In this document: positions 3,491-14,046 of the stretch, one piece after another
Layout of the letters: each line of letters opens with the position of its first letter
Position numbering within the stretch: position 1 is the first letter of the stretch
From: Prolixibacteraceae bacterium
GTDB taxonomy: Bacteria; Bacteroidota; Bacteroidia; Bacteroidales; Prolixibacteraceae
Assembly (NCBI GenBank): GCA_018648265.1
Contig: JABGRN010000067.1
Location: 1-33,370 of the forward strand
Length of the DNA: 33,370 nt
Reading direction: 5' to 3'
Notes under the pieces: generated by a model
Told to the model about the DNA's origin: nothing
Database searches by the model: none
The model's input: the letters and a program-made list of their open reading frames with translations, nothing else
Program-made: the position numbers and the translations under genes

Positions 3491-3515
3491 CCGATTGCAA
3501 ATTGGCACGAGCGGG
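3491..3515. repeat. REP-like hairpin, 3-nt loop, CACGAGCGG tail
   Basis: The near-perfect stem CCGATT/AATTGG (one G-T type mismatch) with loop GCA is followed directly by CACGAGCGGG. It shares its tail with the hairpin at 4027. Confidence 0.5.
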
Positions 3516-3618
3516 GAGGAAGAGTTTAAGTCAGGTAAGTTCAACATTGTTAGTCCTATTGAATCCACCTAACTATTAATTATATTTGGTAGAAATTATA
3601 AGTGTAATAAATCGCAAT

Positions 3619-3870
3619 ATGGAGCCAGACAAAAATAAGGAACCAGAAAAGAAAAAGGAAAATATTCAGGATAAACCAGAAAAATGGATCGACAAAGCTG
3701 AAGAGTTTATTGATGATACTGCAGAGAAAATTCATAAAAGTGATACATACCGTAAAGCCGACAAATCTGTTGAAAAAGCAACTAAAAATGTATTCAGAAA
3801 AGCCGGAATATTGTGGGGAAAATCAGAGCGTTACTTTAAAACCCAGGGTAATAAAAAGGATTCAAAATAA
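3619..3870 (+). CDS. Small highly charged hypothetical protein
   Basis: This 83-aa protein of unknown function is very rich in Lys, Glu and Asp. It begins MEPDKNKEPEKKKENIQDK and continues as one long predicted amphipathic helix (WIDKAEEFIDDTAEKIHK, KADKSVEKATKNVFRKAGI) with no signal peptide or membrane segment. The ATG at 3619 is preferred over an in-frame TTG at 3586, because the 11 residues the TTG would add (hydrophobic VEIISVI) do not fit the rest. The composition resembles small cytoplasmic stress or coiled-coil proteins of Bacteroidota, but no family can be named. It is single, and a strong hairpin pair follows its stop codon. Confidence 0.65.
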   Translation: MEPDKNKEPEKKKENIQDKPEKWIDKAEEFIDDTAEKIHKSDTYRKADKSVEKATKNVFRKAGILWGKSERYFKTQGNKKDSK

Positions 3871-3873
3871 GAT

Positions 3874-3921
3874 GACAAAATTTTGAGTTTTTAACTCAAT
3901 CTTTGTCGTTTGAGAAACGAC
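3874..3921 (+). terminator. Two overlapping hairpins after the small gene
   Basis: GACAAA...TTGAGTT-TTT-AACTCAA...TTTGTC (3874-3907) forms a long stem beginning three bases after the stop codon. It overlaps a second hairpin GTCGTTT-GAG-AAACGAC (3905-3921), so the two are mutually exclusive. There is no clear U-run, so termination is probable but unproven. Confidence 0.45.
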
Positions 3922-3924
3922 ATG

Positions 3925-3973
3925 CAGCTTAGCCCTCGTTGCAACCGAAGGGCAAAGGGAGGCTTTTAAGCTG
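3925..3973. repeat. Nested inverted repeat
   Basis: An outer stem CAGCTTA/TAAGCTG encloses an inner stem GCCCT/AGGGC. Architecture and G-rich right arm resemble the hairpin at 15584-15631, suggesting a dispersed intergenic repeat. Confidence 0.4.
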
Positions 3974-4026
3974 AATCTGGAAATTGATTTATATCTTTGA
4001 AAATAATCTTTATCCCTTTATTGACA

Positions 4027-4050
4027 CGGATTACAAATCCGCACGAGCGG
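4027..4050. repeat. REP-like hairpin, 3-nt loop, CACGAGCGG tail
   Basis: The perfect stem CGGATT/AATCCG with loop ACA (4027-4041) is followed by CACGAGCGG. It lies just downstream of the HNH nuclease gene end and is the cleanest member of the set. Confidence 0.55.
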
Positions 4051-4111
4051 TGTACTGGATCATATTTTGTTGATCCTCGATTTAGAGATAAAATATTCTG
4101 CAAAGGTGTTT

Positions 4112-4885
4112 TCATCCAATAAACCTTTCTTCAATATGCCTTTCTAAAAACCTAACATCTGGAAGAAACCTCGCAGGCCGAATAATTTCTTTTTTATGAT
4201 ATGTTGCAAAATAATTCTGAATAAAACTATCTTCCGATTTCATAAAATCATTACAAATCAAAATTTTCAGATTCTTATCAATTGCTAAATACCCATTCTC
4301 AAAAGCTTTATCATGCAAATTATTTAATAAAAGTCCATTCTGAGGATTAAGTCTATTTTCCTTGTCTTTTGACCAAGGAATTATGTGACTTGCGATTAAG
4401 AAATCAGGATTTCCAAATCCTGTAACAGCACATTTATTATTGAAATTAGCTAATACTATCTGACGAAAAACATTCTGATTTACTCTTGTTTTAACTTCTC
4501 GTAATTTTGTTTTTCCCTCTAATATATCAGTTCCTTTGAGAACCATCTCATATTTTTTTTCAATTGATGTTTGTTGGATTTCTGCAAGAATCCTTTCACT
4601 TTCAAAAATTAACTCTTCTTTGTTATTATGAAATTCATCCCAAATAGGCTGAACTTGTTTAATTCCACCTTTCAATCCAACAATACCCCTTTCTTGATGA
4701 TAAGGATCAACGCTGGCAAAATTGCTTAATCGCATTGAGACAGCATTGGGGTTCCTATCCTTCATTAAATCTGACAGTTCAATAACTTCTTTAGCGGTAT
4801 GATGAATTTTTCCAAAAGGGATTTTTAGATATAAATTAAATGCTAATATTAGTTCTTCTCTCGACCAAAGTTTTCGTTTAACCAT
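4112..4885 (-). CDS. HNH endonuclease family protein
   Basis: The 257-aa protein is a predicted DNA endonuclease with a C-terminal HNH_2-type domain. Cys152 (KCAVTG), His167 (ASHIIPWS), Asn183 (NPQNGL) and His191 (NLHDKAF) provide the beta-beta-alpha metal fold. The N-terminal part (SREELILAFNLYLKIPFGK, about 8-26) is typical of stand-alone HNH nucleases associated with restriction or defence loci. The frame stays open upstream to 4963, but ATG 4885 is preferred because the family begins at this point and the extra 26 residues look non-coding. It lies downstream of an 84-aa gene in the same direction. Vsr fragments in the vicinity suggest a decayed restriction/repair context; no methyltransferase is present. 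Nuclease class is firm; role in defence is inference. Confidence 0.85.
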   Translation of the reverse strand: MVKRKLWSREELILAFNLYLKIPFGKIHHTAKEVIELSDLMKDRNPNAVSMRLSNFASVDPYHQERGIVGLKGGIKQVQPIWDEFHNNKEELIFESERILAEIQQTSIEKKYEMVLKGTDILEGKTKLREVKTRVNQNVFRQIVLANFNNKCAVTGFGNPDFLIASHIIPWSKDKENRLNPQNGLLLNNLHDKAFENGYLAIDKNLKILICNDFMKSEDSFIQNYFATYHKKEIIRPARFLPDVRFLERHIEERFIG

Positions 4886-4947
4886 TTTGGGTGATTTTTC
4901 AACAACTATAAAACTAATATTAATGAACTTAAATGCATAGAAGTAAT

Positions 4948-5202
4948 CTAACTTTCTTCGCATAATGAAATCAATTCACACCAATCATGATCTAATTCTG
5001 GATTATAATTAGGAAATTGAGGTTTTATCAATCCAAAATCATGAGGGACAAAATACTTTTCATCAATTAATTGATTTCGGAACCAATTTTCAAAGTCTAC
5101 TAATTCAAAATTATAGGGATTTATAATTTCAACTTCTTCATATAACTTGTAATTTGCTGCATCACGATATAGATATTCTATAATTATTTTATGCTTTCTC
5201 AT
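4948..5202 (-). CDS. Small hypothetical protein upstream of the HNH gene
   Basis: This 84-aa acidic protein has no signal peptide. It starts MRKHKIIIEYLYRDAANYK and ends LDHDWCELISLCEES, with tryptophans at FENWF and HDWCEL. I do not recognise a named family. It is the first gene of a two-gene unit with the HNH nuclease: its stop lies 62 bases before the preferred HNH start and overlaps the longer possible start by 16 bases. The arrangement would fit an accessory or immunity-like partner, but nothing in the sequence proves that. A truncated vsr reading frame ends 39 bases upstream. Confidence 0.6.
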   Translation of the reverse strand: MRKHKIIIEYLYRDAANYKLYEEVEIINPYNFELVDFENWFRNQLIDEKYFVPHDFGLIKPQFPNYNPELDHDWCELISLCEES

Positions 5203-5241
5203 TCAACAAAAGAAATCTAAAAACAATATAGAATCAACGGA

Positions 5242-5361
5242 CTATAAGTAACATCCTTCAGCAAACAAAAACTTCCGCACCAGCATTTCGGGTTTGGTAT
5301 TTTTCCCTTTTATGCGGCTCATGTTATACGAGCGGGTAGTTTTGTTGTGGACGTCGGCCAT
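5242..5361 (-). pseudogene. vsr: vsr 5'-end fragment, copy 1
   Basis: The reading frame begins MADVHNKTTRSYNMSRIKGK, continues NTKPEMLVRKFLFAEG and stops after 39 codons (TAG at 5242-5244). This matches the N-terminus of very-short-patch mismatch endonucleases (E. coli Vsr starts MADVHDKATRSKNM). A normal Vsr is about 140-155 aa, so roughly the last three quarters, including the Zn and catalytic region, is missing. Homology breaks after codon 36. The bases just upstream (5385-5418) resemble those upstream of copy 2, so the copied unit includes its leader. It precedes the 84-aa/HNH pair in the same orientation. Confidence 0.8.
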
Positions 5362-5418
5362 TTTAAAGATTTGATTATCGAGTAGCAAGTATCAAGACAG
5401 GATAAAGTTACAAAATCA

Positions 5419-5540
5419 AAATCCAGCGGATTTGAATGTTTATAGAAAAAATTGTTTGTAAGGAACGGTGCGACTCCGGCTGGAGTCGAATTTCTTGTAC
5501 ACGATGATGTTTCTATAAACATGTGATGCCGCCGGCATCA
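5419..5540. repeat. Multi-hairpin repeat, left copy
   Basis: This composite unit contains, in order: hairpin AAATCC-AGC-GGATTT (5419-5433); arm TGTTTATAGAAA (5437-5448); hairpin CGACTCCGGCTGGAGTCG (5471-5488); arm TTTCTATAAACA (5510-5521), the exact reverse complement of the first arm; and hairpin TGATGCC-GCC-GGCATCA (5524-5540). The last hairpin includes the transposase stop codon. A second copy in the same orientation lies at 6047-6167, on the other side of the transposase gene. Confidence 0.85.
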
Positions 5541-6002
5541 ATCTTCTAACCATTGAAACAAATATTCATCTTTAAATTCAATTTCAAATGCTTTTAAAAA
5601 ATCAAGATATTCTTCTTTAAATGTTTTCTTTTTATGATGTTCCTTTTGGTTTTCAATGTAACGAATTACATTGCCCAGCTGAGAGTGCGAATAAGAAAAA
5701 GCCCCAAATCCTTTTTGCCAGTTAAATTTAAATGGCGTGAAACGTTTTTCCTTTACCATAGCATCAGACGATTTTTTTACCTCACGAACCAAATCGGAAA
5801 GGCAGCATGTGGGTTTTATTCCAATAAAAAAATGAATATGGTTTGATGTTCCGTTAATTGCTAACATTTTTTGCCCTTTGTTTTGCACAATTCCTGTAAT
5901 GTATTTGTACAATTCTTCTTCCCAACTCTTATGAATTGTTGCGTTTCGGTTTTGAACGGCAAAAACGACCTGGATGTAAATTTGTGTGAATGTATCGGCC
6001 AT
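5538..6002 (-). CDS. Y1 (HUH) transposase, RAYT/IS200-like
   Basis: This 154-aa single-domain tyrosine transposase of the IS200/REP-associated (RAYT) superfamily cuts and joins single-stranded DNA at hairpins. The HUH metal motif is His55-Ile-His57 (SNHIHFFIG). The catalytic tyrosine is most likely Tyr115 in VIRYIENQKEHH, followed by the usual basic tail. The ATG at 6002 is used rather than the upstream in-frame one at 6041 because family members begin MADTFTQIYIQ. The frame is complete, so the enzyme may be active. It is bracketed by two directly repeated multi-hairpin units, with one of them supplying its stop codon. No tnpB is present. A simple IS200 would lack such long direct repeats and a classical RAYT usually has inverted REPs, so this arrangement is unusual. 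Confidence 0.88.
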   Translation of the reverse strand: MADTFTQIYIQVVFAVQNRNATIHKSWEEELYKYITGIVQNKGQKMLAINGTSNHIHFFIGIKPTCCLSDLVREVKKSSDAMVKEKRFTPFKFNWQKGFGAFSYSHSQLGNVIRYIENQKEHHKKKTFKEEYLDFLKAFEIEFKDEYLFQWLED

Positions 6003-6046
6003 AATATAGGATTTAGAATTAATAAAAATACGAATTTTCAAAGTAC

Positions 6047-6167
6047 AAATCCAGCGGATTTGAATGTTTATAGAAATAATTGGTAGGTTGGAATGGTGCG
6101 ACTCCGGCTGGAGTCGGATTTCTTATACACGATTATGTTTCTATAAACATATGATGCAGCCGGCATC
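6047..6167. repeat. Multi-hairpin repeat, right copy
   Basis: This is a second, same-orientation copy of the unit at 5419-5540, differing at about a dozen positions. The first hairpin, the 12-nt arms (6065-6076 and 6138-6149) and the central hairpin (6099-6116) are unchanged. The last hairpin is altered (GATGC/GCATC, 6153-6167) and abuts the truncated end of vsr copy 2. Confidence 0.85.
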
Positions 6168-6253
6168 GGGAGCATAGGTATTTCGGGATTGGTATTTTTC
6201 CCTTTTATGCGGCTCATGTTATAAGAGCGGGTTGTAAGGTTGTGTACATCCAT
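6168..6253 (-). pseudogene. vsr: vsr 5'-end fragment, copy 2
   Basis: The frame starts MDVHNLTTRSYNMSRIKGKN, then TNPE, which is the Vsr N-terminus. After about 25 codons it runs straight into the multi-hairpin repeat and stays open through it to a stop at 6068, with non-Vsr sequence. At DNA level the stretch ACATGAGCCGCATAAAAGGG is identical to copy 1. It is too short to fold as a nuclease and precedes the transposase gene in the same orientation. Confidence 0.78.
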
Positions 6254-6514
6254 AAGAATAGTATCGGGTACAAGACACAAGTATCAAGACTGGAATAAAG
6301 ATACAAAATCTACATCCTCCGGAGTTCAAAGTTTCGAGTTTTAAGTTCAAAGTTAGGGGAGAGAGAATCAAGATGCAAGAGTCAAGACACAAGTATCAAG
6401 TATCACGAATCTGAATATGGAGGTTTTTTGGTAATTAATAAAGAAAGTCTCAGATAGGAAAGTGAGCAGCGAAGAGGGAAGAAAAGACCAAGTATCAAGT
6501 AGTAGAAATCGGGT
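6254..6514. repeat. Degenerate word-repeat spacer
   Basis: No gene is seen in these 261 bases. The words CAAGTATCAAGA/ACAAGTATCAAGTATCA recur at about 6279, 6391 and 6490, and a related copy occurs at 5388. An AAGTTCAAAGTT tract lies at 6323-6357. The part next to vsr copy 2 (about 6270-6310) resembles the leader of copy 1, including a CATCC..GGAG hairpin at the position of the first hairpin of the 5419 repeat. Confidence 0.5.
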
Positions 6515-8392
6515 TTATTCCTCAATTTTTGTTAGTATAACTTTCGAATAAATTCCCGGGCGCTGGTAGCATTCTTCCATTTTCCCATTGGGCATTATTT
6601 TAAGCGTTATTATTTGGGTTTTTGTTTCGTCGCTTAAAACTAAATTTCCATGCTGGAATTTCCCACTAAACCTTTGCCAGCCGGCTTTATTGATGTTCCA
6701 TCGCGGAGCAACACCCCATGCATAAATCGCTTTTGCTTCGTGCTTATTATAAATTTCCTCCACTACAATGGCCGTATTTAAGATGCCATCGGCAACACCA
6801 AACCAGCTACCCGAAAATTTTGCAAGTTCTTTTGGAATCGCTCCCGGGGGAGGTTTAATGGTCATGTTTTCGGGAAAGACTAAATCTGAAGTTTTTGCCC
6901 GGTTTTCTAAAAACTGGTTAAAACTACTTTTATAGGTAAACTGATAACTTTGGTTGTTTAATAACCAGTCGCTGATTTCTTTTACAGGTTCTGTTGTATT
7001 TATCCAGTAATCAGGTAAAAACCCCCTGCATTCTTCAAAATCGGGTATTAAAATAAAATGGCGGGGTATTTTGGCAATAAATTTAGAGTTTGGCAGATAA
7101 TAATCGCAAGCACTTGAAAACATTCCGCTTCCACCTGTATTTTCTCCGATAAGGATTCTGTTTTTAACACAAGCTGAGACGCCAACAAAAGCCTCCCCGG
7201 CAGATAGTACATTCCGGTTGGCTAAAACAAGCAGTTTCCCTTTAAAATCCTCACCTGTTTTAGTAGGTTCACCATTTTTTGAGCACACCCACTTTTTTTT
7301 GGGTGCAATTTGATAACTTTTTACCAGTCTCCGGTTCTTCTCTATCATCTGCCTGAAACCCGGCGATTGTGCTGCTTTTGACTCTAGATCGTACCCGGCA
7401 TAATATTCAATTATGGGAGGAGAGCTGAGCTCTCCCCAATGGGTATCCCAATAAACTTTTCCGTTTAAATTACTGATAAATGTTTGTGGGAATAAAGAAG
7501 AACCGCCCCCGTTGTTCATAACATTGGCAATAATATACTTTTCATCCTTAAGCTGATGACCCGATTCCATAAACTGTTTCATTATTGGGTAAATTTCGTT
7601 GGCAAAGCTTGATACATTCACAATAGCTATATTATTCACTTTCCTAATGTTAAAAGGCCTGGATTGATTGTTTTTGACAAAGCCAAGACGGTTTTCATGA
7701 AATTGGATTTCGATGGGTTTATTGTTAAAAGAAAGTTTTTGGGAAGTTATGGGTTGATACGAAAATACCCCGATTAAATAATGATTTTCCCCTGCCGGAG
7801 AAAGTGTTTTAAATAGATAATTACTAACATCGTTTTGCGTAAAATAATCGCCGGTTTTCACGGGTTCAAACTGAGAGTTTATGACTTTGTATGTTTCCTG
7901 TTCTGTTTCTGCAACAACAATATCGCAGAAATAAACGGTAAGGTGTTTATATGCTCCGTATGCGTTTTTTCCCTGTAAACCTATATGTCCATCGCTTATT
8001 AAGCTTAAAATTTCCGACCATTCTTTCTCAAATTCATCGATTGGAATTGTATCCTTTTGTTCAGCAAAACTACGGAGTTCAGAAAAATAGAGATCGAAAT
8101 CTACACCCTGATGTTTCCAGTATTCATATCCGGCATATGACGTTTTAATCAGATATTCAAATACCTCAATGTCTTCCAATGCCTCCTTTTTTGTTAAAAA
8201 ATCAGGTATTGGCAAATCCATATTGCCATAATGAAATAGTATTTTATGATACTCTACAGGACTTTCAGCACACTTAATATACTGATTAAGTGTGCTCGGG
8301 GTTTTTGCGAGCTCAGTTTTTTTACTGCACGAGGTGAGAACATTTAATAAAAGGAAAACCAGCAATACTAAACAAACTCTTTGGTGGTTCAT
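6515..8392 (-). CDS. S41-family peptidase-like lipoprotein
   Basis: The 625-aa protein has a lipoprotein signal (hydrophobic 7-19, lipobox LTSC with Cys22) and an S41 (C-terminal-processing protease/TSPc) domain. Family signatures are LISDGHIGL (131-139), a degenerate DxRxNxGG equivalent NVMNNGGGSS (290-299), VLANRNVLSAGEAFVG (389-404) with the probable catalytic Ser397, IGENTGGSG (415-423) and GFLPDYWIN (457-465). No PDZ domain is obvious. The last ~110 residues (GTVADG-like 'SWFGVADGILNTAIVVEEIY') form a separate beta-rich domain. Its ATG lies one base after the TGA of vsr copy 3, so translation may be coupled. It likely acts on peptides in the periplasm or at the outer membrane; the substrate is unknown. 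Confidence 0.85.
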   Translation of the reverse strand: MNHQRVCLVLLVFLLLNVLTSCSKKTELAKTPSTLNQYIKCAESPVEYHKILFHYGNMDLPIPDFLTKKEALEDIEVFEYLIKTSYAGYEYWKHQGVDFDLYFSELRSFAEQKDTIPIDEFEKEWSEILSLISDGHIGLQGKNAYGAYKHLTVYFCDIVVAETEQETYKVINSQFEPVKTGDYFTQNDVSNYLFKTLSPAGENHYLIGVFSYQPITSQKLSFNNKPIEIQFHENRLGFVKNNQSRPFNIRKVNNIAIVNVSSFANEIYPIMKQFMESGHQLKDEKYIIANVMNNGGGSSLFPQTFISNLNGKVYWDTHWGELSSPPIIEYYAGYDLESKAAQSPGFRQMIEKNRRLVKSYQIAPKKKWVCSKNGEPTKTGEDFKGKLLVLANRNVLSAGEAFVGVSACVKNRILIGENTGGSGMFSSACDYYLPNSKFIAKIPRHFILIPDFEECRGFLPDYWINTTEPVKEISDWLLNNQSYQFTYKSSFNQFLENRAKTSDLVFPENMTIKPPPGAIPKELAKFSGSWFGVADGILNTAIVVEEIYNKHEAKAIYAWGVAPRWNINKAGWQRFSGKFQHGNLVLSDETKTQIITLKIMPNGKMEECYQRPGIYSKVILTKIEE

Positions 8393-8393
8393 G

Positions 8394-8576
8394 TCACTGA
8401 ATTTTGTTATGGATAGTTTTTGAGAGACATGTACGGTATTCGTATCGTTTTGGTTTCAGAATAGTTAAGAATCCTTTGCCAAACCTTAACTTCCACAGCT
8501 GCATTACGGGATTGGTATTTTTCCCTATAATGTGACTCATGTTCCAGGAACGGGTGGTTTTATTGTGTACATCCAT
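8394..8576 (-). pseudogene. vsr: vsr 5'-end fragment, copy 3
   Basis: This 60-codon frame begins MDVHNKTTRSWNMSHIIGKN, then TNPVMQLWKLRFGKGF, recognisably the Vsr N-terminus to about residue 36. The remaining 24 residues (LTILKPKRYEYRTCL...) do not look like Vsr. It ends in TGA one base before the ATG of the S41 peptidase gene, as an overlapping leader reading frame would. It is the most diverged of the three copies, though GGGAAAAATACCAATCCC is shared with copy 2. Confidence 0.72.
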
Positions 8577-8678
8577 TGGATGTTCAAAGTTTCGGGTTTA
8601 AAGTTAATGAAAAAAGTCGCAGTCGCAGCTTGCAGTGGCAGGGAGAAAGATAAGAAAGTCGCAGTTGCAGTTTGTCGG
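8577..8678. repeat. Short word repeats upstream of vsr copy 3
   Basis: The tract holds TTCAAAGTTTCGGGTTTAAA at 8581-8600, and AGTCGCAGTCGCAG with AGTCGCAGTTGCAG between about 8613 and 8670. Related GTCGCAG words recur at 33165-33178. It appears to be simple degenerate repetition without a reading frame. Confidence 0.45.
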
Positions 8679-9794
8679 TTATAGCACTTTTTTCACCCCC
8701 GGGATTTGTTTTGCCAGCCAGGCAATAAAAAAACAAGCCACCAAAGCTATCGGGGCCAACACAATAAATTTCAGAAGCTGTGGAATTTGAAAGTTTAGAA
8801 AAACAGCACTTATCCCGAGTAAAACAGGTGTGTGAAAAACATACACTCCGTAGGCGCTGTCGGAAAGTTGTTTGCCGGATTTTCCCTGTTTATTAAGTCG
8901 CTTTTTGAAGATCCCGAACAAGCCAATTATTAAAGAGATACCAACCAACTGCTCCCAGGTGGTATAAGAAAAACATTGCCAGGTAAAACCGCCCATAAAT
9001 TTGTCGGTGCCATTTTCTGCTGCCCCTCCAAGTAAAAATAATACCGGGAATCCTATAAAAATAAGTGTTTGTGCAAAGGCAAACCAGCGCCAACCGGATT
9101 TGCTGCTTATGTTTCCCATCCAGTTATTTTGATATGCAATAATTCCGAAGGAAAAGAGAAAAATATATTGTAGAAAGTGAGGAAATTGAAATCCTGTAAA
9201 AGGGGATCCCCAACCCACCGGCAACCAAATACGAATAATAAATTGTCCTAATCCGATTAGAAAAGCAAATAATAATATATTTTTTGCCTCCGGGAATTTC
9301 ATTATTATTTTAAATTTTAAAAGTCGAATCAGTAAAAAAATGCCAGTAAAAACCAGCAGTGCTTCCACAAACCACATGGGCCCAAATCCCCAGGCATCCG
9401 GGTTTTTGAGAAGTTCAAAAAAGGTGTCTTCTTTTTCAAAAATGTATTTGTTCCTTATGTAAATGGTTAGTGGATTCAGCAAAAAAAAGAATACTAAAAG
9501 TGGAATTCCCAGTCGCACCAATCTTTCTTTAGCAAATGTTTTCGTTCCTTTTCGGTTGAGGGAAGGCAGAATAAAATATGCCGAAATAAAAAAGAACATG
9601 CCCATAAAAAATGCCTGATTGGTTGCTACAAACAAAGCCATAGGGAATATTGACGGAAAATCGGCCTGCGACTCATTGTAAAACCAGCTTCCGGGCGCAC
9701 CATAAGTAATAATTAGGTGATGTAAAACAACTAATCCTATCAGAAAAATACGGAGGTTATCGATGTAGAAAAGACGTGATTTTGACATTGACAT
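8679..9794 (-). CDS. Acyltransferase-3 family membrane protein
   Basis: This 371-aa integral membrane acyltransferase (acyltransferase_3/OafA-like) has about ten hydrophobic segments. The N-terminal signature is RLFYIDNLRIFLIGLVVLHH (7-26), where the conserved His pair of the family sits near the first helix. FFISAYFILPSL, the basic KERLVRLGIP and WFVEALLVF are further family landmarks. Such enzymes O-acylate sugars, lipids or glycopeptides in the inner membrane. There is no glycan gene nearby to suggest a substrate. A second Met at residue 3 is an equally good start. It is apparently monocistronic; the MITE-like element lies upstream. Confidence 0.88.
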   Translation of the reverse strand: MSMSKSRLFYIDNLRIFLIGLVVLHHLIITYGAPGSWFYNESQADFPSIFPMALFVATNQAFFMGMFFFISAYFILPSLNRKGTKTFAKERLVRLGIPLLVFFFLLNPLTIYIRNKYIFEKEDTFFELLKNPDAWGFGPMWFVEALLVFTGIFLLIRLLKFKIIMKFPEAKNILLFAFLIGLGQFIIRIWLPVGWGSPFTGFQFPHFLQYIFLFSFGIIAYQNNWMGNISSKSGWRWFAFAQTLIFIGFPVLFLLGGAAENGTDKFMGGFTWQCFSYTTWEQLVGISLIIGLFGIFKKRLNKQGKSGKQLSDSAYGVYVFHTPVLLGISAVFLNFQIPQLLKFIVLAPIALVACFFIAWLAKQIPGVKKVL

Positions 9795-9880
9795 AAGTTT
9801 TGTAAAAAATACACTGATTAATAATTTTTTGGGTCACTCTTTTTATTCTCTGAAATACATCTTCAATTCAAAACAATAAA

Positions 9881-12494: not shown

Positions 12495-12600
12495 AATTAT
12501 TAGGTCAGGTGAATTTAAAAAGTATGGATACTTCGGGATTTATCCAAACTGAGAAAAATTGAGGAGGGGATTAATTTTTTGTCTTCAAAAAAAGAAAGAT

Positions 12601-12649
12601 TAACCAACGCTGGTTATTAGTCATGCCCCCATTTATTATGAGGGCATGA
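12601..12649 (-). terminator. Tandem hairpins downstream of the Gfo/Idh gene
   Basis: Two stems lie between the genes: TCATGCCC/GGGCATGA (12621-12649) and TAACCA-ACGC-TGGTTA (12601-12616). Read on the minus strand they are followed by a T-rich run (ATCTTTCTTTTTTT). This is consistent with termination after the gene ending at 12661, separating it from the transporter/isomerase operon. Confidence 0.6.
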
Positions 12650-12660
12650 TTAAACAATCA

Positions 12661-13974
12661 TTAAACTACGGGTAATTTCCATGGAGCCCTGTAAATTGGT
12701 GTAAGTAATTGATTCGCATCTTCGTCGCCAATAAATTTGCTGTTGTCTGCATCCCAATATAACCTGCGACCTGTTTTAAAAGCAACATTTCCTAAATGGC
12801 AAACCCTTGCTGTATTTGCAGCAATCCCAATATTTGCATTTGGCGAAATGGATGGATCTTTAATACAATCGATAAAATTTTTCATGTGGTTGTTTAGTCC
12901 CTGACCATCACCTTTTTGTAATTCTACTCGTTCCATTGCGGGATTGTTGCCACCTTCGGGAATTACCTCCCAGCCTCCGCGATCGACAACTAAAGTACCG
13001 TTGTTTCCAACAAAACCGACACCGTGCGAACGTCCGTAGTAACCTCCGTCAATTCCAATTCCATGATCCCAAAGCATCGTGTAACCATCAAAATCGTACA
13101 AAGCCTGTTGGGTGTCCGGAGTTTCGCAGGCATCATCGGGATAAGCAAATTTTCCTCCCATCGACATTACTGATTTTGGTGCTTTTGCTTTCATTCCAAA
13201 TAGGGCATAATCAATAATATGTACCCCCCAATCGGTCATCATACCACCGGCATAATCCCAAAACCATCGAAAAGTAAAGTGAAACCGGTTTTTATTGAAA
13301 GCTTGTTTTTTTGCCGGCCCTAACCAGAAATCGTAATCGACACCTGCCGGTGGCGCACTGTCTACAACAACCGGCACTGATTTCATCCAACCCTGGTACG
13401 ACCATGTCCGAACGGTACGAATTTTACCCAAAGCACCTGAATGAACAAATTCAATAGCTTTTTGCCAATGTGTATCACTGCGTTGCCACTGCCCAACTTG
13501 AACAACATTTCCATATTTGGCTGCCGCCCGTTCCATTATGTTTATCTCCTCGATGGAATTTGCCAGAGGTTTTTCACAGTAAATGTGTTTGCCTTCCTGG
13601 GCTGCATTAACAAATGGAATGGTGTGCCAGTGGTCGGGAGTTCCAATAATTATTACATCGATTCCCGGCTCCTCCAGTAATTTTCTGAAATCTTTAAATC
13701 CTTTAGGCTTTGTACCCTGAATTTTTTCAGTGTCCGCGATTCGTTCGTTTAACACGTTTTCGTCAACATCGCAAATGGCAGCACATTCTGTATTCGGTTG
13801 GCGTAGAAAGGCCTGCAAATCGGAAAATCCCATTCCTTTTGCACCAATTAAACCACAAACCAGTTTTTCGTTGGCACCTTTGAATGAATTCATAGCCATG
13901 GGCGTTGAAGCTGCAAGACCAAATCCTGCGGTTGCAAGTGCTGATTTTTTAATAAAATTTCTTCTGTTTGTCAT
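12661..13974 (-). CDS. Tat-exported Gfo/Idh/MocA family oxidoreductase
   Basis: This 437-aa NAD(P)-dependent sugar oxidoreductase is exported by Tat: the signal MTNRRNFIKKSALATAGFGL has the twin Arg at 4-5. The Rossmann motif GLIGAKGMG spans 41-49, the catalytic Lys is in EKPLA (134-138), and the second catalytic motif is DWGVHIIDY with Asp248 and His252. Related periplasmic Bacteroidota proteins oxidise glycosides at C3 with a tightly bound cofactor, or use it redox-neutrally for hydrolysis. Neighbours are TIM-barrel isomerases, a second Gfo/Idh and a DUF1080 protein, all fitting keto-sugar chemistry. It is bounded downstream by hairpins and upstream by a CTTCGGACTTCC repeat tract. The substrate is unknown. 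Confidence 0.9.
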   Translation of the reverse strand: MTNRRNFIKKSALATAGFGLAASTPMAMNSFKGANEKLVCGLIGAKGMGFSDLQAFLRQPNTECAAICDVDENVLNERIADTEKIQGTKPKGFKDFRKLLEEPGIDVIIIGTPDHWHTIPFVNAAQEGKHIYCEKPLANSIEEINIMERAAAKYGNVVQVGQWQRSDTHWQKAIEFVHSGALGKIRTVRTWSYQGWMKSVPVVVDSAPPAGVDYDFWLGPAKKQAFNKNRFHFTFRWFWDYAGGMMTDWGVHIIDYALFGMKAKAPKSVMSMGGKFAYPDDACETPDTQQALYDFDGYTMLWDHGIGIDGGYYGRSHGVGFVGNNGTLVVDRGGWEVIPEGGNNPAMERVELQKGDGQGLNNHMKNFIDCIKDPSISPNANIGIAANTARVCHLGNVAFKTGRRLYWDADNSKFIGDEDANQLLTPIYRAPWKLPVV

Positions 13975-13984
13975 TTTTTAAGAA

Positions 13985-14046
13985 TTGTCGGAGGTCCGAA
14001 GCCGGAAGTTGAAAGAATGACCGAAGCCGGAAGTCCGAAGTTATAG
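13985..14046. repeat. GGAAGTCCGAAGT repeat tract, left of the S23-like gene
   Basis: The degenerate words GGTCCGAAGCCGGAAGTTGA and CCGAAGCCGGAAGTCCGAAG occur here. The tract at 14446-14480 has the same words in opposite orientation (CTTCCGACTTCCGACTTCGA), so the S23-like gene sits between inverted copies. Confidence 0.6.

Follow-up and report, generated by a model that had tools for sequence, protein, structure and literature searches.

Why would three truncated copies of one gene stand in a row, each at the head of a different gene? The question is raised by contig JABGRN010000067.1 of the Prolixibacteraceae bacterium assembly GCA_018648265.1 (33,370 nucleotides (nt); hereafter the window), which is the whole of contig C69 of a 5.58-Mb genome labelled G000 among its relatives. 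A sequence-only reading had described three 5' ends of vsr on the minus strand, ahead of an S41 peptidase-like gene, a Y1 transposase gene and an 84-amino-acid (84-aa) gene followed by an HNH nuclease gene, and had proposed a cassette-like array. Comparison with related genomes suggests another answer: the locus is probably a site of restriction-gene exchange, with the vsr start as its left edge and with cargo replaced by homologous recombination.

The truncated genes themselves proved to be as described. All three lie on the minus strand and match the Pfam Vsr profile from its first position, copy 1 (8466-8576, codons 1-37) over positions 1-37 (E 2.6e-5), copy 2 (6176-6253, codons 1-26) over 1-26 (E 8e-4) and copy 3 (5245-5361, codons 1-36 plus three) over 1-36 (E 2.5e-10), confirming that only about the first 25-36 codons were kept; copy 3 scores above the curated Pfam cut-off and copies 1 and 2 below it. 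The open reading frame (ORF) of copy 1 spans 8394-8576, its TGA one base ahead of the ATG of the S41 gene, and the stop codon of copy 3 is 5244-5242. The stubs form one direct-repeat family of 103 nt with 72% and 78% identity to the reference copy, so that, as had been claimed, they are homologous but diverged and do not stem from one recent duplication. Copies 1 and 2 do share leader DNA, but the shared part is short (24 nt, 92% identity), and leader pieces are common to copies 2 and 3 as well. The copy 2 leader (6260-6510) contains short CTTGxxx-type repeats, and stretches of it about 20-35 nt long match dozens of other genome sites. The lack of a downstream vsr remainder, as first described, was also borne out, the vsr 3' half finding no convincing match in the G000 genome (best E 0.84). 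Profile and DNA searches of the genome returned only the window locus and a fourth copy on contig C128, the other profile matches having E of at least 0.4 and the other DNA matches being short, and a genome-wide repeat family was accordingly rejected. The C128 copy is frameshifted, ends at codon 67 and lies downstream of a paralogous acyltransferase 64% identical to the one preceding copy 1; after it (L131 8262-12774) comes an 817-aa ORF with a HATPase_c_3 domain, to our eye of a MORC-like kind.

Truncation of this kind recurs in related genomes. Vsr matches (E up to 0.01) occur in 22 of the 37 genomes of the genus set (G000 included), and many span only about the first 26-37 positions. We mapped 26 loci from 24 of the 37, picked mainly by vsr-start or C-box matches and with gene clusters taken from our own ORF caller; among the genus and order loci, six come from Draconibacterium orientale, D. 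mangrovi, Maribellus sediminis, Maribellus sp. CM-23, Mariniphaga sediminis and one Bacteroidota metagenome-assembled genome. Of the vsr copies at the 26 loci, 34 are 5'-only, 7 are full length, 1 lies at a locus edge and none is 3'-only; BLAST chaining overextends the listed ends of a few stubs, placing that of window copy 2, for instance, at codon 88. Among 34 other clusters at the same loci, 13 members were 5'-only and 18 were 3'-only. Leaving aside c30, which derives from vsr, and c1, an HNH cluster united by a common domain alone, reduces the counts to 4 and 7. The comparison is biased by the choice of loci through the vsr start. As an independent check, a genus-wide search with the 3' half gave no 3'-only match, strong matches being confined to full, divergent full or past-mid-gene vsr copies. 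Recurrent truncation near codons 25-36 before different genes, which the earlier reading had taken as the mark of a cassette system, was thus found in the genus and in six stubs from the wider order; full-length vsr at related loci, which it had taken as the mark of ordinary decay, is present in part (7 of the 24 mapped genomes). The vsr stubs at L054 (G031), L055 (G026) and L044 (G001), which stand ahead of three different genes, contain similar insertions of some 20 nt.

Across the order, Vsr was matched in 73 of 295 genomes, mostly at full length. Eight 5'-only regions were fetched, of which six, all from other families, are clear stubs of about 24-45 codons (G351, G418, G234, G178, G296 and G224); the G406 region is cut by a contig end and G374 is a divergent match. 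By cluster profiles, the cargo is HNH in G224, a frame-broken helicase in G351 and AAA plus DUF2357 in G296, a pair also found behind vsr in G001 and behind a stub in G009. Five remnants lacking the 5' end were fetched as well (G403, codons 58-136; G165, 38-132 with a stop; G303, broken, 20-138; G259, 30-74; G429, 46-61), and G224 has a further vsr piece of codons 34-51. One-sided truncation is therefore a feature of the genus and not of the order.

The nature of the edge became apparent from the sequence that follows copy 3. This stub passes directly into GTTACTTATAGTCCGTTGA (5234-5252, minus strand), an exact match overlapping the end of copy 3, for which 0.01 matches are expected by chance when as many as 3 mismatches are allowed. 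In G001 and G034 the GTTACTTATAGTCCGTTGA element sits after a complete vsr and ahead of a small helix-turn-helix (HTH) gene, and in G001 it forms the left half of a full dyad, GTTACTTATCGTCCGTTGACTTATAAGTAAC, of which the window has the left half only. In these intact loci, vsr and the operator lead into the gene for the C-like HTH protein, behind which lie the cytosine methyltransferase and further genes (for G001, those of an AAA protein and a DUF2357/PD-(D/E)XK protein); G012, G022 and G032 share this arrangement, with operators that vary. Because it lies between vsr and an HTH gene in intact loci and resembles the Esp1396I left operator, given as ATGTGACTTATAGTC... in PMC3758141, we take the window element to be a half C-box, representing the left side of an operator for a controller protein.

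The box occurs in 15 of the 37 genus genomes at no more than 2 mismatches (7 hits for a reversed control pattern). Two of these have intact systems; in the other 13, G000 among them, it heads a small gene (10 of the 84-aa family, one of them 101 aa; 3 of a 99-aa family) that is followed by helicase and/or HNH genes, and it may act as that gene's promoter or operator. A stub directly precedes the half C-box in 9 of the 13, palindromes intervene in G017 and other sequence precedes the box in G003, G005 and G011. The consistent downstream junction expected of a cassette system was thus found for one class, stub then half C-box, but junctions differ between classes, and the reading frames running from stub into C-box differ between loci. 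Outside the genus, Mariniphaga sediminis has stub, box, 84-aa gene and helicase, and in G105 a related small gene is preceded by a box-like element, the 420 nt upstream showing no vsr. The partners of the operator are mostly gone. No C-protein cluster member was found in the 12.5 kb of the window mapped, and a search with the G001 C protein at E up to 1e-8 found none in 12 of the 13 half-C-box genomes; the best match in G000 is 44% identical and lies near the end of another contig. PF00145 methyltransferases (E up to 0.001; other methyltransferase families were not searched for) are missing from 9 of the 13, including G000, and in G005, G024, G028 and G033 they are on another contig or more than 1 Mb distant.

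Behind the small gene comes a Schlafen-group-3 helicase (PADLOC candidate PDC-S41), an HNH protein here called HNH-A, or a ResIII/PLD/DUF3427 protein (a PADLOC type IV match in G026 and G027), often with a second HNH gene, HNH-B, next. An SRA-domain gene is inserted between the helicase and HNH-B genes of G003 (L113 8310-8996, minus strand), a hint that the module reads modified DNA, and a PLD protein stands before HNH-B in G005. Such cargo would suit modification-dependent restriction and would be ill-suited to a place beside a cytosine methyltransferase, and the two may exclude each other. As at a defence hotspot, the acyltransferase and the host genes following it lie upstream in many loci, and restriction-type cargo differs behind vsr.

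Switch points were read from 13 loci (78 pairs), most pairs being too diverged to show a joint. G027 and G028 resemble each other at 88-98% as far as the C-box and match through its final base; each then has unrelated cargo, and similarity resumes at HNH-B (97%); the first HNH-B codons of G027 resemble those of G026, which places the right-hand crossover of G027/G028 inside them (within the first dozen codons). G026 and G027 in turn align in register for 4.6 kb (89%) from the C-box onward. Homology starts 2-3 nt before the C-box in G005/G007 and G003/G005 and inside the stub in G000/G024, where it becomes strong at about codon 13. In G017/G019 the leader and some 20 stub codons correspond, the sequences then part, and similarity returns at the helicase start. 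These alignments support a constant head with exchanged cargo as a real feature of the genus. A PQQ-type gene is bounded by vsr starts on both sides and is 97% identical between L111 8490-9960 (G001) and L114, oriented 12530-14000 (G005).

Genome comparison shows truncation, cargo variety, switch points and methyltransferase absence, and the following course of events could account for them. The ancestral unit would have begun with vsr and the C-box and continued with the C protein, the cytosine methyltransferase and additional genes. DNA arriving with different restriction-type genes would have replaced the right side through homologous recombination, crossing over in the vsr start, the 19-20-bp C-box or the HNH-B start. 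Vsr repairs mismatches caused by methylated cytosine; with the cytosine methyltransferase gone, vsr would have had no further use and its body would have been lost, leaving the start as an edge before the new cargo. Successive rounds would have left the three heads of the window, one before the S41 gene, one joined to an IS200-like element and one before the half C-box, the 84-aa gene and HNH-A.

As a gauge of selection to keep the stub as a peptide, the ratio of nonsynonymous to synonymous polymorphism (pN/pS) was 0.23 in 23 stubs (0.27 with an out-of-register G002 row) and 0.08 in 7 intact vsr genes, and 1 of 24 stubs has a stop in codons 3-25. The 14 stubs outside the C-box class (0.29) look like relics. 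A TAnnTTTR box lies 8-45 nt upstream of 14 of 25 vsr copies (shuffle mean 1.5; 57 of 279 other ORFs), which lends weak support to retention of the vsr promoter.

Several observations weigh against exchange by homologous recombination as the explanation. The 9 stubs before a half C-box have a pN/pS of 0.13, which may reflect recent truncation but also constraint that persists. By itself, a 20-bp box would be a poor substrate for recombination. The order stubs of G234 and G178 lie within a few kb of methyltransferase-like genes, and stubs are also found where no C-box follows and where the cargo has no known role in restriction (S41, PQQ-type). Nor does the exchange model explain why 15 of 18 truncation classes end by codon 49, classes that were set by hand from 5'-retaining copies only; this clustering has P of about 8e-8 under a flat model over codons 24-138 and is 12 of 12 after weaker classes are dropped. 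The restriction of one-sidedness to the genus and the absence of methyltransferase from most half-C-box genomes pull in opposite directions, which leaves the balance among the explanations unchanged.

The simplest rival is plain decay, in which several former restriction systems each left a vsr gene to degenerate at a hotspot, 5' ends happening to survive since vsr came first in each. Vsr does head the unit in the intact genus loci, a methyltransferase follows it directly in 8 of 30 order loci, the pN/pS of stubs outside the C-box class is well above that of intact genes, and the order has remnants without a 5' end (G403, G165 and G303, the smaller mid pieces of G259 and G429, and the 34-51 piece of G224). 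Decay leaves unexplained a genus tally of 34 to 0 in favour of 5'-only copies, with none in the genus-wide 3'-half search, when other clusters at these loci divide 13 to 18 or 4 to 7, and cargo that switches between close relatives; we consider it unlikely. Insertion with a long target duplication, reportedly the mechanism of Nobusato et al. in 2000, which PMC3874152 cites, would have cargo enter vsr and duplicate about 100 bp of its start, leaving one stub per insertion. The order stub, cargo, full vsr in G001 (with the PQQ-type gene) and G029 is what this predicts, as is the 97% similarity of G001 and G005 from the stub through the PQQ-type gene into the first codons of the next vsr. The last copy should, however, continue into the rest of vsr, and neither the window nor the 13 half-C-box loci have a 3' remainder, which makes such insertion an improbable origin for them.

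A third rival, a dedicated cassette system, would use the vsr start or half C-box as the recombination site of an enzyme of unknown kind, each cassette being made of promoter plus genes. The constant head and exchanged cargo of the original cassette-like proposal hold up in aligned relatives, junctions are sharp, and stubs stand before restriction-type genes in other families too (AAA and DUF2357 in G296, HNH in G224, a broken helicase in G351). A dedicated mechanism is not supported. Of the 10 window ORFs scanned with Pfam (spanning 3586-9794), the only DNA-joining domain is Y1_Tnp and none is a site-specific recombinase, the rest of the genome not having been scanned for recombinases; no short site is conserved at every boundary, junctions differing by class (attC structures were not searched for); crossover zones vary between pairs; and there are the 5'-lacking remnants of G403, G165 and G303. 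The vsr start was also rejected as a DNA-level attachment site, since synonymous codons among the first 80 codons of 37 full-length genes vary, by eye, about as expected without general nucleotide-level constraint, with a mild excess of synonymous identity at a few codons (such as 7, 13, 15, 16 and 33). A dedicated system is therefore highly improbable, and homologous recombination with loss of vsr is likelier. Rather doubtful, too, is the idea that the vsr start and orphan half C-box constitute a working port, a fixed promoter and homology platform for interchangeable methyltransferase-free modules of small protein, effector and HNH-B. The low pN/pS of the nine half-C-box stubs may mean that the stub is still used, and such a port might, with the same doubt, be kept for offering new cargo both homology to land on and regulation already in place, with no C protein required.

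The remaining features of the window complete the picture. The left neighbour of the array is an acyltransferase family 3 gene (8679-9794, minus strand; Acyl_transf_3, E 4e-35). The S41 peptidase-like gene behind copy 1 (6515-8392, minus strand; Peptidase_S41, E 9e-9) has no match in the other 36 genus genomes and, at E up to 1e-30, a single distant relative, 33% identical, in 140 family genomes, so that the step from copy 1 to S41 is a single case. Behind copy 2 lies a Y1 (IS200-like) transposase gene of 154 aa from its ATG (5538-6002, minus strand; Y1_Tnp, E 5e-23), with an NCBIfam IS200/IS605 transposase match barely above cut-off. It is flanked by blocks resembling repetitive extragenic palindromes (REP) at 6033-6167 on its upstream side and 5405-5539 on its downstream side, a 135-nt repeat pair 87% identical, and the palindrome GACTCCRGCYGGAGTC (up to 1 mismatch) is confined in G000 to these two blocks. 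With both a Y1 domain and flanking palindromes, the element fits the class of IS200/IS605-type transposases with REP palindromes. In G002 (L112 7966-9779), tandem units of about 255-262 bp occur in a stretch with several vsr stubs and REP-like palindromes.

The 84-aa gene (4948-5202, minus strand), first cargo behind the half C-box, has 10 cluster members in the 26 loci; its family is rare in the order (4 of 393 genomes). The protein has no Pfam, PADLOC or NCBIfam match, and its structure model, of modest quality (mean predicted local distance difference test score 73), gave no match with E below 0.001, one solved structure matching non-significantly. A mobile carrier was rejected, as the protein is matchless in plasmid, phage and viral-contig collections. 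Between the 84-aa gene and the next effector gene, TATTAGTTTTAT-like motifs precede helicase (4) and HNH-A (5) starts. The HNH-A gene (4112-4885, minus strand; HNH_2, E 1e-12; PADLOC HNH, E 7e-84) is listed as an ORF extending to 4963, the start at 4885 being the one conserved among relatives; against NCBIfam PT-DNA_restrict it scores 56.8 bits, below the 180-bit cut-off. HNH-B, intact in relatives, survives as a 5' stub of about 20 codons as judged by eye (4056-4115, minus strand; starts aligned with those of relatives), at which homology between G000 and G024 stops. A palindrome-like stretch, GGATTTGTAATCC, lies at 4040-4080, where the HNH-B stub ends. RNA genes were rejected as integration sites, with no RNA family at gathering threshold in 3500-9800 and no tRNA in the window.

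The arrangement combines traits of several known systems. Its intact loci (vsr, C-box, C-like HTH and cytosine methyltransferase) resemble C-protein type II restriction-modification systems, and the box matches the Esp1396I left operator given in PMC3758141; unlike those systems, the window, like 12 further genomes, has the left half-box alone, on another gene, 9 of the 13 half-C-box genomes lack a PF00145 match and 12 of 13 a C-protein match. The HNH proteins, the SRA protein of G003 and the PADLOC type IV matches of G026 and G027 resemble type IV, modification-dependent restriction, a likeness drawn from sequence, but here the vsr stub, half C-box and small proteins come first. Defence hotspots such as those of P2/P4 phages (PMC9122126) similarly place differing restriction-type genes beside conserved host genes; the present site is chromosomal, and its edge is a truncated restriction-associated gene and an operator half with visible crossover zones. 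Target-duplication insertions likewise place repeated 5' gene fragments, about 100 bp long, beside the genes inserted, which fits G001 and G029, whereas the window and half-C-box loci lack the 3' remainder of a target gene. The palindrome-blocked Y1 transposase after copy 2 and the G002 tandem units resemble IS200/IS605 elements with REP sequences, except that the G000 palindrome is found at one element only, and an integron cassette array differs in having a site-specific recombinase and a common boundary site, neither of which was found (10 window ORFs). Titles and the opening lines of abstracts on truncated vsr and on restriction in Draconibacterium did not describe this arrangement.

The joints of defence-gene turnover are rarely seen; here they are almost base-exact, in a 20-bp half operator and within a 100-bp stub, with the half operator outlasting a regulator and methyltransferase that are mostly gone. 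The locus offers a concrete model of how methyltransferase-free restriction modules may replace complete restriction-modification systems, and the combination of vsr stub and half C-box is a search handle that could reveal more such modules, including the unnamed 84-aa family. Together, these observations suggest a setting in which marine bacteria swap restriction-type gene sets at one chromosomal spot.

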